Assembly (NCBI RefSeq): GCF_040954835.1
Contig: NC_090700.1
Span: 19,573,501 to 19,637,500 of the forward strand
Length of the DNA stretch: 64,000 nucleotides
Reading direction: 5' to 3'
From: Lepisosteus oculatus
Lineage: Eukaryota > Chordata > Actinopteri > Semionotiformes > Lepisosteidae
Shown: positions 26,103 through 64,000 of the stretch, in pieces
Position numbering within the stretch: the stretch's first letter is position 1
Layout: each line of letters opens with the position of its first letter
Notes under the pieces: generated by a model
The model's database searches: none
Told to the model about the DNA's origin: nothing
What the model saw: the letters and a program-made list of their open reading frames with translations, nothing else
Position numbers and translations under genes: made by a program

Positions 26103-26732
26103 ATTACCACTTATTTTATGAAAAAATAGAAGTCCCGTATAAAGTAAATTATATATGATTTATTACCATTTAATTATTTGTCAAAAGTGATTATATTAGT
26201 GGTCTTACCCTAATATACAGTAGCCTTAAGACTAATTTAACCATCAGAAAGCTCAACTTGCTTTCTTGCAACAGTTTTTGCCTGAATTTGATGAAAATTC
26301 ACATGAAAGACGAATACAAGTATATCTGGCAAAGTTAATGAATTGCACCAAACAATGAGACGTAAGTATTTCCTTCTTTATATGAACAAAGCAATGTTGA
26401 GGAAATAGCAGTCCCAGTGTTTACTGAGTTTTAAGTAAGCACTTTAGAAATGACCACAGTAAACTCATCTCATTCAAGTCAGTACACTTCACATTAACCC
26501 TCCTACTGTACTTCACCTTCCTCTTCTTATTATGTCTCAGGCTTAACGTCACAGTGATGGGCTTTGTGGTGAGTAAGGTCCCACTTTCAACTTCACAACA
26601 AGTAGGTACACGAGGGTTTTAAGGAGAATAGAGATCTTTTTAAGAAGACTTCAGTTCCTCGTTCTTGTCAGCTGTATTGAAAAGAAGAAGAGAGCTGCTC
26701 TTTGTCCCATTTTCAGCTCACACATATTCCTC

Positions 26733-27392
26733 CTACACTGCCGGCAGATCCTGCTGCAAAACAGCTGGTTGGTATGCAGTTAGTCTAGGGTTTGGTGGGT
26801 AAAAAGATCCTTGTGACGCTTTACTGTGGGGAATGTTACAACATACAAACATTATCCCGCTAGCAAACATGACACCCGAAGACACCCACCCTATGTACAG
26901 GGCTTCTCCCAGCTCTCGTCTCTGAGCATCCAGGAGCAGGGGATTGTAGAAGTCCCTGATGATCACGTGGGCGGTCCAGGACACTGGGATAAGGACACAA
27001 AGGCAGGCGACAATTAAAATGCAACCAGCAATGGCAAGGATGATCCCTTTTGTGTGGTCATTGTCCTGAATGCAGACAGTACATTGCATCCCCATGGTGG
27101 CTATCAGCAGGCCCAAGACCCCCAGAGCAATCGAGCAGCACATCAGTCCCCGGGCGGCCTGGAGGTCCGGAGGCAGGATCAGCAGGGAGTCGTAGACTTT
27201 GCACTGCATCCTGATGTTGGCCTGATGGAAGCAGTTCATCCACAGCCCTTCCCAGCGGGTCTCGAACACGATGATGTTCTCCCCGATAAAAGCTGTCACT
27301 CTCCACATCGGCATACCCGTGGCGGCAGAGGCTCCAAAAAGGCCGATGAGGCCCAGGCATAAGGCAACGATCTGCAACAGCCGCTGATCCAT
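26733..27392 (-). CDS. Claudin-8/17-type tight-junction protein, copy 1 (nearest grik1)
   Basis: 219-residue, intronless claudin: a four-pass membrane protein that polymerises into tight-junction strands and sets paracellular ion permeability in epithelia. The W30...GLW(49-51)...C54...C64 signature of the first extracellular loop, Lys65 and Arg81 are all present. The second loop carries DFYNP, and RRELGEALYIGW enters TM4. Transmembrane segments are at roughly 8-28, 82-102, 117-137 and 165-186. Position next to grik1 is that of human CLDN17, but the loop QANIRMQCKVYDSL is more CLDN8-like, so I leave the symbol open. Unusual points: His56 (FHQ) where the other copies have Arg, and the C-terminus LPAV instead of a YV PDZ ligand, because TAG (26735-26733) precedes an in-frame GAG GAA TAT GTG TGA. 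A minus-strand AATAAA lies at 26105-26100. Confidence 0.95.
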   Translation of the reverse strand: MDQRLLQIVALCLGLIGLFGASAATGMPMWRVTAFIGENIIVFETRWEGLWMNCFHQANIRMQCKVYDSLLILPPDLQAARGLMCCSIALGVLGLLIATMGMQCTVCIQDNDHTKGIILAIAGCILIVACLCVLIPVSWTAHVIIRDFYNPLLLDAQRRELGEALYIGWVSSGVMFASGIMFVCCNIPHSKASQGSFYPPNPRLTAYQPAVLQQDLPAV

Positions 27393-30893: not shown

Positions 30894-31574
30894 TCAAACA
30901 TAATCACTTCTGCTGCGCACACTTGAGGGGAGGCGCTGCAATACATGGGGCTGGTACCCTACATGCTGAGCATTTCTGGAATATAGTAACCTTTGTGAAT
31001 TTTTGTCTTCAGGTACACTGCGGCACGCAAAAATGCACCCACCAGCAAAGAGAAAAGCAGACGTCACCCACCCGATGTAGAGGGCTTCTCCCAGCTCTCG
31101 TCTCTGAGCGTCCAGAAGCAGGGGGTTGTAGAAATCCCTGATGATTACGTTGCCAGTCCAGGACACAGGGATAAGAACACAAATAGAGGCCATAATTATA
31201 AGACAGCCGCTTATAATGAGGATGATGCTTTTGGCACGGTCGTTATCCCGGATGCAGGATGTGCATTGCATCCCCATGGTGGCTATCATCAAGCCCAAGA
31301 AGGCCAGGGCAAGAGAACAGCACATCAGTCCCCGGGCGGCCTGGAGGTCCGGAGGCAGGATCAGCAGGGAGTCGTAGACTTTGCACTGCATCCTGATGTT
31401 GGCCTGTCGGAAGCAGTTCATCCACAGCCCTTCCCAAAGGGTCTCCATCACAATGATGTTCTCCCCGATGAAAGCCGTCACTCTCCACATCGGCATGCCC
31501 GTGGCGGCCGCAGCGCCTATCAGGCCGATGGTACTCAGAATCATGGCGACAATTTCCAGCACCGCTAGAGCCAT
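30894..31574 (-). CDS. cldn8: Claudin-8-like tight-junction protein, copy 2
   Basis: 226 residues from MALAVLEIVAM. An upstream in-frame ATG at 31586 would add only MHPE, and the later ATG aligns with the other copies. Claudin signature W30, GLW 49-51, C54, C64, Lys65, Arg81; second loop DFYNP; TM4 entry RRELGEALYIGW. The tail ends SRSDYV, a canonical claudin PDZ ligand for ZO-type scaffolds. Leu46 (TLWEGLW) replaces the Arg of the other copies, which removes a positive charge from loop 1. The TM2 region SLALAFLGLMIATMGMQCT shares IATMGMQC with copy 1 and SLALAF with copy 4. Single exon, like human CLDN8 and CLDN17. A candidate polyadenylation signal is about 840 bp downstream. Confidence 0.95.
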   Translation of the reverse strand: MALAVLEIVAMILSTIGLIGAAAATGMPMWRVTAFIGENIIVMETLWEGLWMNCFRQANIRMQCKVYDSLLILPPDLQAARGLMCCSLALAFLGLMIATMGMQCTSCIRDNDRAKSIILIISGCLIIMASICVLIPVSWTGNVIIRDFYNPLLLDAQRRELGEALYIGWVTSAFLFAGGCIFACRSVPEDKNSQRLLYSRNAQHVGYQPHVLQRLPSSVRSRSDYV

Positions 31575-37908: not shown

Positions 37909-38667
37909 TCAGATGTACTGCCCTCTTTTGCTGTATATAACTGAACCCTGTGGTGGCAAAGAGTAAGCTGGCTGGTAAGTATAAGCTGGCTGATAGGTAT
38001 AAGCTGGTTGGTAGGTGTAAGCTGGCTGGTAGGTGTAAGGTTGTTTGTAGTTGGGAGGAAGGGAGCTTCCATTGTACATATACTTTTCATCTTCTTGTGC
38101 TCGAGGTGCGTGGCGGCACAGCAGTATTACCCCAGCAGCAAACAGAATGGCAGACGTCACCCACCCGATGTAGAGGGCTTCTCCCAGCTCTCGTCTCTGA
38201 GCGTCCAGAAGCAGGGGATTGTAGAAATCCCTGATGATTACGTTGCCAGTCCAGGACACAGGGATGAGTGTGGTGATACAAGCCAGAAGAAAAAGACATC
38301 CACCTACAATCAGAGTGATATGTTTGGCACGGCCATTTTCTTTAAAAGCCGCTGTGCATCGCATCCCCACGATAGACACTATTAGGGCAAAACTGGTCAG
38401 AGCAATCGAGCAGCACATCAGTCCCCGGGCAGCCTGGAGGTCCGGAGGCAGGATCAGCAGGGAGTCGTACACTTTGCACTGCATCCTGATATTGGCCTGA
38501 CGGAAGCAGTTCATCCACAACCCTTCCCAACGGGTCTCCATCACGATGATGTTCTCCCCGATGAAAGCCGTCACTCTCCACATCGGGAGGCCTGTGACAG
38601 CGGCCACACCAATCAGTCCGATGAAGCCCAAACATATGGCAACGATTTCCAGCGCCCCCTTCGCCAT
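37909..38667 (-). CDS. cldn8: Claudin-8-like protein with tyrosine-rich tail repeats, copy 3
   Basis: 252 residues from MAKGALEIVA, about 25 longer than the other copies. Full claudin signature: W30, GLW 49-51, C54, C64, Lys65, Arg81, loop-2 DFYNP at 147-151 and TM4 after RRELGEALYIGW. The extra length is in the cytoplasmic tail, where residues 211-234 are four perfect YTYQPA units encoded by an 18-bp tandem repeat (37966-38037). The tail ends GQYI, a variant of the usual YV PDZ ligand. Nucleotide blocks for loop 1 and for TM3-loop 2-TM4 are nearly identical to copy 4, while TM2 and the intracellular loop differ strongly. Single coding exon on the minus strand. Confidence 0.95.
   Translation of the reverse strand: MAKGALEIVAICLGFIGLIGVAAVTGLPMWRVTAFIGENIIVMETRWEGLWMNCFRQANIRMQCKVYDSLLILPPDLQAARGLMCCSIALTSFALIVSIVGMRCTAAFKENGRAKHITLIVGGCLFLLACITTLIPVSWTGNVIIRDFYNPLLLDAQRRELGEALYIGWVTSAILFAAGVILLCRHAPRAQEDEKYMYNGSSLPPNYKQPYTYQPAYTYQPAYTYQPAYTYQPAYSLPPQGSVIYSKRGQYI
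37966..38037 (-). repeat. 18-bp coding minisatellite (YTYQPA)4
   Basis: Four in-frame 18-bp units, minus-strand consensus TACACCTACCAGCCAGCT, with a few synonymous changes between units. Lies in the tail of claudin copy 3. Confidence 0.9.
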
Positions 38668-42856: not shown

Positions 42857-43534
42857 TCACACATACTGACTTTTGCTGTAAACGCTGGAGGGTTGCCTCT
42901 GCACTGCCGGCTGAGGCATACTGTGTACCGAGCCCTTGGTATAGTAATATTCATCCTCTTTCTGCTTTCGGGGCACATAGCGGCACAGCAGTATTACCCC
43001 AGCAGCAAACAGAATGGCAGACGTCACCCACCCGATGTAGAGGGCTTCTCCCAGCTCTCGTCTCTGAGCGTCCAGAATCTGGGGATTGTAGAAATCCCTG
43101 ATGATTACGTTGCCAGTCCAGGACACAGGGATGAGTGTGGTGATACAAGCCAGAAGAAACAGGCATCCGCCTACAATCAGGATGATATTTTTTGTGTGCA
43201 TGTCATCCTTGAGGCATCTCGTTCCCTGTATGCCAACAGCAGAGATGATCAGTGCGAAGAAGGCCAGGGCAAGAGAGCAGCACATCAGTCCGCGGGCAGC
43301 CTGGAGGTCTGGAGGCAGGATCAGCAGGGAGTCGTACACTTTGCACTGCATCCTGATGTTGGCCTGTCGGAAGCAGTTCATCCACAGCCCTTCCCAACGG
43401 GTCTCCATCACGATGATGTTCTCCCCGATGAAAGCCGTCACTCTCCACATCGGGAGGCCTGTAATAGCGGCCACACCAATCAGTCCGATGAAGCCCAAGC
43501 ACATAGCAACTATTTCCAGCGCCCCGCTCCCCAT
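42857..43534 (-). CDS. cldn8: Claudin-8-like tight-junction protein, copy 4
   Basis: 225 residues from MGSGALEIVAM. The frame stays open for 64 further codons upstream (ATG at 43726), but those residues have no claudin character and the chosen ATG aligns with the other copies, so the upstream part is treated as 5' UTR. Signature W30, GLW 49-51, C54, C64, Lys65, Arg81; loop 2 reads DFYNPQIL, where the others have DFYNPLLL. The tail ends YSKSQYV, essentially the CLDN8 C-terminus (SQYV), making this the most CLDN8-like copy and the one nearest tiam1, as in human. Loop-coding blocks are about 97 percent identical to copy 3, while the TM2 start SLALAF resembles copy 2. Confidence 0.95.
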   Translation of the reverse strand: MGSGALEIVAMCLGFIGLIGVAAITGLPMWRVTAFIGENIIVMETRWEGLWMNCFRQANIRMQCKVYDSLLILPPDLQAARGLMCCSLALAFFALIISAVGIQGTRCLKDDMHTKNIILIVGGCLFLLACITTLIPVSWTGNVIIRDFYNPQILDAQRRELGEALYIGWVTSAILFAAGVILLCRYVPRKQKEDEYYYTKGSVHSMPQPAVQRQPSSVYSKSQYV

Positions 43535-63160: not shown

Positions 63161-63648
63161 TCAAATTTCACCATTTCCACTGGCCACAAAGTCTTCCCTA
63201 CGCACCCAAATCACCTCCTCACCACCACTTTCAATGGTCCCGTTTAGTCCAGACACGGCACACTGTTTCTTGAGCTGGGCCATTTTTAGGGCGTGAGAAC
63301 TCTCCGCAGCCTTCTGGGGAGCGTCCTCTGGCTCACCCTCGCTGTCACCATCACCGTCGAGCGACAGTGCCTTCACAGGGGCCTCCAAGTCCTGCTCCGC
63401 TGCCGGCCCTTTGACTGACTCGCAGTATTCATCGTCGTCACTGAGGATGTCGGTCTCCTTCACGTCCTCTTGGTCCTCGTACCGGTGCAGGTCAAACTGC
63501 TCCTCTACCCAGCGGTCAGTGTCCGTGGCTGGGAGTGCCTGCGGGGAGAGGTCCCTGGCAGAGCTGCTGTCGAAAACCACGTCCGTGTCTATAGTGAACC
63601 GGTTCCTCACGAGCTTCCGCCGCGCCAGGGTCCGGGTCGGAGCCGACA
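63161..63648 (-). CDS. tiam1: TIAM1 Rac guanine-nucleotide exchange factor, terminal coding exon (partial gene)
   Basis: The last exon of a Dbl-family exchange factor that activates Rac1 at the plasma membrane and cell junctions. It opens at a clear acceptor (minus strand CGCTTCTCAG, AG at 63650-63649), with two bases completing a split codon, and encodes about 161 residues to the stop at 63161. Diagnostic blocks are RFTIDTDVVFDSSS, TDTDRWVEEQFDLHRYEDQ, DVKETDILSDDDEYCESVKG, MAQLKKQCAVSGLNG and EEVIWVRREDFVAS, ending NGEI; these match, from memory, the C-terminus of mammalian TIAM1 (ending NTEI). The catalytic DH-PH and other domains would lie to the right, outside the window. TIAM2 has a similar tail, but linkage to the CLDN8 cluster favours TIAM1. 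The apparent GTG start of the frame is not a start codon. Confidence 0.88.
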
Positions 63649-64000
63649 CTGAGAAGCGAGATATATGATATTAGAGGTCAGGTTTATAACCCAATTAAAA
63701 TGGAGTTTCATTCTTCAAAGGAGATACTAATATTTATGCACTTCCAGTGCTCATTTACATCCATCCATTTTCTAACCACTTTATCCAATTTAGGGTCACA
63801 GGGGGAACTAGAATCTATCCCAACAAGCAATGGGCATGAGGCAGGGCATACCATAGATGGGATGCCAGTGCACATACACGAGGCCAATATTTCCATAAGC
63901 CTACCAGTATGTTTTTGGACTGTGGGAGGGACCCTGACGAAACCCACACAAACACTGGAAGAACAGAATCTCCACACAGATTGCACACCAGGTCCAGAAC
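63649..64000 (-). other. tiam1 intron (partial)
   Basis: Intron upstream of the terminal tiam1 exon. Most of it is a SINE. The polypyrimidine tract before the acceptor is short and interrupted (ATATATCTCGCTTCTCAG). Confidence 0.7.
63756..64000 (-). mobile_element. tRNA-derived SINE, running off the window
   Basis: The plus strand reads CATCCATCCATTTTCTAACC, ACTTTATCCAATTTAGGGTC, CATAGATGGGATGCCAGTGC, TTTTTGGACTGTGGGAGGG and CTCCACACAGATTGCACACC. It is the tail and most of the body in reverse; the tRNA-like head is cut by the window edge. Confidence 0.85.

Follow-up and report, generated by a model that had tools for sequence, protein, structure and literature searches.

A 64,000-nucleotide stretch of Lepisosteus oculatus DNA, referred to below as the window (NC_090700.1, positions 19,573,501 to 19,637,500), carries a tandem array of four claudin genes on its minus strand. 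One of these genes, copy 1, terminates immediately before codons that read EEYV followed by a stop, an ending of the kind by which claudins bind the PDZ domains of ZO-type proteins. Was a functional ligand cut off by a nonsense codon, or is this stop an error or a minor allele, a fortuitous neighbour of a YV ending, or a codon that is occasionally bypassed?

The claudin cluster

The window contains 38 percent G+C and no N, and each claudin gene consists of one open frame in the ORF list. Copy 1 (26733..27392, 219 aa, C-terminal sequence YQPAVLQQDLPAV) is followed by copy 2 (30894..31574, 226 aa, C-terminus RSRSDYV), copy 3 (37909..38667, 252 aa, C-terminus SKRGQYI, its tail carrying a TYQPAY repeat) and copy 4 (42857..43534, 225 aa, C-terminus YSKSQYV). 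The translations agree with the original prediction that copies 2 and 4 end in DYV and QYV; copy 3, absent from that account, ends in QYI. The closest sister of copy 1 is copy 2, with 73 percent identity, followed by copies 3 and 4 with 64 percent each. From the tail YSKSQYV of copy 4, the members of the cluster may be claudin-8-like.

All four copies match the Pfam family PMP22_Claudin (PF00822), copy 1 with an E-value of 2e-25 over residues 5-182. Among solved structures, the top phmmer match of copy 1 is claudin-4 (4.8e-59); this similarity already points to a claudin fold, and four membrane segments would be expected from family membership. The signature of the first extracellular loop, given in the available part of PMC11172262 as G-L-W-x-x-C, a spacer of 7-9 polar or charged residues and a second cysteine, is present in copy 1 as GLWMNCFHQANIRMQC, with nine residues between the cysteines, some of them neither polar nor charged. 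In one scan each, relatives were sought in viral contigs (55 pattern matches, none confirmed) and in prokaryote genome contigs (29 pattern matches, none confirmed), as expected for a vertebrate gene. Elsewhere in the window, close to its edge, a minus-strand open frame of 169 aa (63161-63670) appears by eye to be rich in D and E and has no Pfam match at 0.001.

The open frame of copy 1 is complete, spanning both the claudin domain and the cysteine signature, and its sequence bears no sign of a dead gene. Over the whole alignment, the dN/dS pairs of copy 1 are 0.18/0.78 with copy 2, 0.26/0.81 with copy 3 and 0.26/1.07 with copy 4, and in alignment columns 28-87 dN falls to 0.02 to 0.03 and dS to 0.19 to 0.26; these values compare old paralogues, and a recent loss of constraint would stay invisible to them. 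Codons for the same residue are mostly identical at columns about 21-80 and 131-180, which correspond to extracellular-loop stretches, and far less often between these two regions and in the tails. The longest run of such identical codons reaches 56 between copies 3 and 4 and 36 between copies 1 and 2, lengths that were attained in 0 of 10,000 permutations in either case; the runs of the other four pairs of copies were not significant (permutation p 0.07 to 0.36). The extracellular-loop DNA of some copies thus looks homogenised by gene conversion, and the run shared by copies 1 and 2 suggests that these two genes exchanged sequence at some time. A literature search combining claudin, gene conversion and extracellular loop returned only papers on a bacterium and a virus, as judged from the titles.

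The tails of the cluster, by comparison of the sequences, diverge fast: in alignment columns 172-220 copy 1 has 46 to 54 percent DNA identity with the other copies. In the tail of copy 3, an 18-base tandem repeat of 4 to 5 copies (37963-38050) encodes TYQPAY units, and a single YQPAV or YQPHV occupies the matching place in copies 1 and 2. Claudin tail sequences were not found in the accessible parts of two papers on fish or teleost claudins (PMC2937028, PMC8215749).

The stop codon of copy 1 and the frame behind it

Read directly from one genome sequence, positions 26738-26718 of the minus strand are GTG TAG GAG GAA TAT GTG TGA. The coding sequence of copy 1 ends in CTG CCG GCA GTG TAG and its protein in DLPAV (last seven residues QQDLPAV), the terminating TAG lying at 26733..26735. 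The codons GAG GAA TAT GTG TGA (26732-26718, minus strand), likely the relic of a PDZ-ligand tail, follow in the same frame, which is kept up to the YV ending with no second stop in between. The in-frame EEYV announced by the original prediction is indeed there, its placement five codons past the stop being loose wording for four sense codons that directly adjoin the TAG.

Copies 1 and 2 can be aligned through YQPxVLQ..LP, after which copy 2 continues with SSVRSRSDYV and copy 1 with AV, the stop and EEYV. This homology up to the stop places the latter just before the ligand region. The TAG pairs with different codons in the alignments with copy 2 and with copy 4, and the assignment of a single ancestral sense codon at this position was dropped since the two registers disagree. 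The EEYV codons are probably carried by the copy 1 mRNA, because polyadenylation-like hexamers sit beyond them on the minus strand. Downstream of the TAG, four of the eight hexamers lie at distances of 307 to 627 bases (26105-26425) and the remaining four at 841 to 1,696 bases.

Chance or homology of the EEYV ending

When the six frames of the window were examined for a YV-stop located in frame 2 to 12 sense codons past a stop, 8 of the 7,340 stops were found to be followed in this manner, copy 1 included. The tail was then compared at the DNA level with the final 60 coding bases of every sister copy, using 5,000 random pieces of the window as a null distribution. The 15 bases after the TAG scored 18 against copy 4, a value reached by 22 of the 5,000 random pieces, and their final nine bases are identical to the coding end of this copy. 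Against copy 2 the score was 16 (76/5,000); against copy 3 it was 8, reached by 4,884 of 5,000, so that no support is obtained from this comparison. With a 21-base piece that also includes the TAG and the preceding codon, the corresponding counts were 68/5,000 for copy 4, 76/5,000 for copy 2 and 4,984/5,000 for copy 3. A 45-base piece gave 12/5,000, 91/5,000 and 3,863/5,000 for copies 4, 2 and 3 respectively, the copy 4 alignment (score 25) being in another register, in which the stop region is covered but the YV ending is left out. At the peptide level, where X-EEYV was added to copy 1, random in-frame extensions equalled it in 77 of 3,244 cases for copy 2, 397 of 3,244 for copy 3 and 70 of 3,244 for copy 4.

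As judged from these comparisons, EEYV resembles the termini of copies 2 and 4 beyond chance expectation, at about 1 in 1,000 in the sharpest test and 1 in 40 in the bluntest, and copy 3 lends no support to the homology. The support is genuine though moderate, because the piece amounts to four codons.

Quality of the putative ligand

The ligand of many claudins has been described as (Y/L/F/P)-x-K/R/L/V-K/R/T/S-x-Y-V (PMC11172262, available part), and a tyrosine at -6 is stated in the accessible text of PMC6928914 to influence binding to the first PDZ domain of ZO-1. With V or I accepted as the final residue, YSKSQYV of copy 4 is the sole full match among the four copies, and it also has the tyrosine at -6. 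Copies 2 and 3 depart from the full consensus, as does QQDLPAV, the end of copy 1 as encoded. Read through, copy 1 would terminate in AVXEEYV, in which the final YV is present and E occupies -3 and A occupies -6. The original prediction had called this exactly such an ending as the standard YV ligand of claudins, a description that holds for the final YV and fails at -3, where the consensus has K/R/T/S; copies 2 and 3 likewise fall short of the full pattern. These departures are weak evidence for decay of the tail, because two of the sister copies also miss the full pattern.

Origin of the copy 1 C-terminus

The original prediction offered three options: a recent loss of the ligand, a small read-through fraction bearing EEYV, and a polymorphism or sequencing error. 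The loss by a nonsense codon that left a relic tail is the best supported of these, and copy 1 probably derives from a YV-tailed claudin truncated by the in-frame TAG. A YV-tailed ancestor is favored because the sisters end in YV, YI and YV, because a YV-stop is rare behind the stops of the window and because the nine terminal bases equal those of copy 4; the ancestral state would accordingly be read from three paralogues. Directly observed are the stop itself, the in-frame YV ending with its likeness to the C-termini of copies 2 and 4, and the complete frame of the body. In this scenario, copy 1 would be an intact four-helix claudin, descended from an ancestor that presumably used its C-terminal YV as a ligand for ZO-type PDZ domains. 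The TAG, which we infer to be genuine and common in the species, would now halt translation at LPAV and leave EEYV-stop beyond it as an untranslated relic of the ancestral tail. The truncated protein should still fold, get to the membrane and engage other claudins through its extracellular loops, and its tether to ZO proteins would be either indirect, by way of co-polymerising tailed claudins, or absent.

Two other explanations bear on the nature of the TAG and of the tail. It is unlikely that the TAG arose as an error of sequencing or assembly, or that it represents a minor allele: the usual copy 1 protein would then continue through a sense codon to EEYV, for which a single wrong or variant base would suffice, the ligand behind the stop being in frame. 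The tail is off the consensus at -3 and -6, which may suggest some decay and would speak against this explanation, an argument weakened because copies 2 and 3 also miss the full consensus. Somewhat less probable still is a coincidence, in which copy 1 gained LPAV as a new C-terminus and the in-frame YV-stop lies in its 3' UTR by accident. The fast divergence of the tails, a peptide-level null that is not extreme and the silence of copy 3 fit such an accident; the scarcity of YV-stops within 12 codons of a stop and the nine bases identical to copy 4, found right at its coding end, argue against it.

A recoding of the UAG, either by read-through or by A-to-I editing of UAG to UGG, would add X-EEYV and allow a minor isoform to gain PDZ binding. 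The YV frame is preserved without an intervening stop, and UAG is a favourable sequence for ADAR editing. There is a precedent in LDHB, where read-through appends an extension containing a targeting signal (PMC4359377, available part). Copy 1 has a G immediately before its stop, and A or G at this position is reported to favor read-through in the accessible text of PMC12233894, in which a reporter that combined the MDH1 context with a UAG stop gave 0.4 percent read-through. In the parts of PMC4359377 and PMC4132726 that were available, however, the reporter-confirmed vertebrate cases have CUA or CUAG directly after a UGA stop, and the replacement of UGA by UAG in one such gene lowered read-through about threefold. 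The context of copy 1, UAG GAG G, differs from this motif, as do those of some reported read-through genes: UGA-CUA occurs in only 1 of 42 read-through genes from ribosome profiling (PMC4359377, same part). According to the accessible portion of PMC7089771, UAG read-through is below that of UAA and UGA genome-wide in untreated cells, the order being UGA > UAG > UAA in reporters and drug-treated cells.

RNA structure as a signal for read-through or editing was considered and set aside, the three stretches folded around the copy 1 stop being no more stable than shuffles: z was 0.24 for 98 bases (112/200 shuffles at least as stable), -0.82 for 101 bases (44/200) and -0.30 for 801 bases (7/20). 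A literature search for claudin and stop codon readthrough gave no match with either term in title or abstract, and the X-EEYV extension misses the full ligand consensus. Read-through or editing of copy 1 is possible, without positive support specific to this gene, and the read-through fraction of the original prediction finds none in the UAG-GAG context or in the ordinary folding. Recoding is on the whole improbable, and slightly more so is a two-state gene with a PDZ-less majority and a small YV-tailed fraction. Such a gene would by itself determine how much claudin is free and how much is tethered to the scaffold, the extracellular loops being nearly identical to the loops of the sister copies.

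Comparison with known systems and consequences

Copy 1 shares with the claudins that carry a ZO ligand, such as copy 4 with its YSKSQYV, the claudin domain and the GLW..C..C motif of the first loop, and differs from them by the lack of a terminal YV, owing to the TAG. It can be likened to claudin-12, which is described in the available part of PMC11172262 as having no PDZ motif and forming no strands; of the two reasons suggested there for the lack of strands, the absent motif is one. In copy 1, in contrast, the lost ligand can apparently still be read behind the stop codon. LDHB, AQP4 and OPRL1 (PMC4359377, PMC4132726) and MDH1 (PMC5133446), as described in the accessible parts of these papers, resemble copy 1 in that an in-frame extension would equip the protein with a motif for sorting or binding, and differ from it by a UGA-CUA stop in place of UAG-GAG.

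The truncated copy 1 protein may well co-assemble with tailed claudins while being itself unanchored to ZO proteins. According to the title of a paper cited in PMC11172262, claudins 1 and 5 localise apically without requiring the PDZ motif. Should the TAG turn out to be an allele or an error, the case would be an ordinary matter of curation. If it is genuine, the cluster would offer a natural comparison between near-identical extracellular loops with and without a ZO ligand, and would help to separate strand formation from scaffolding.
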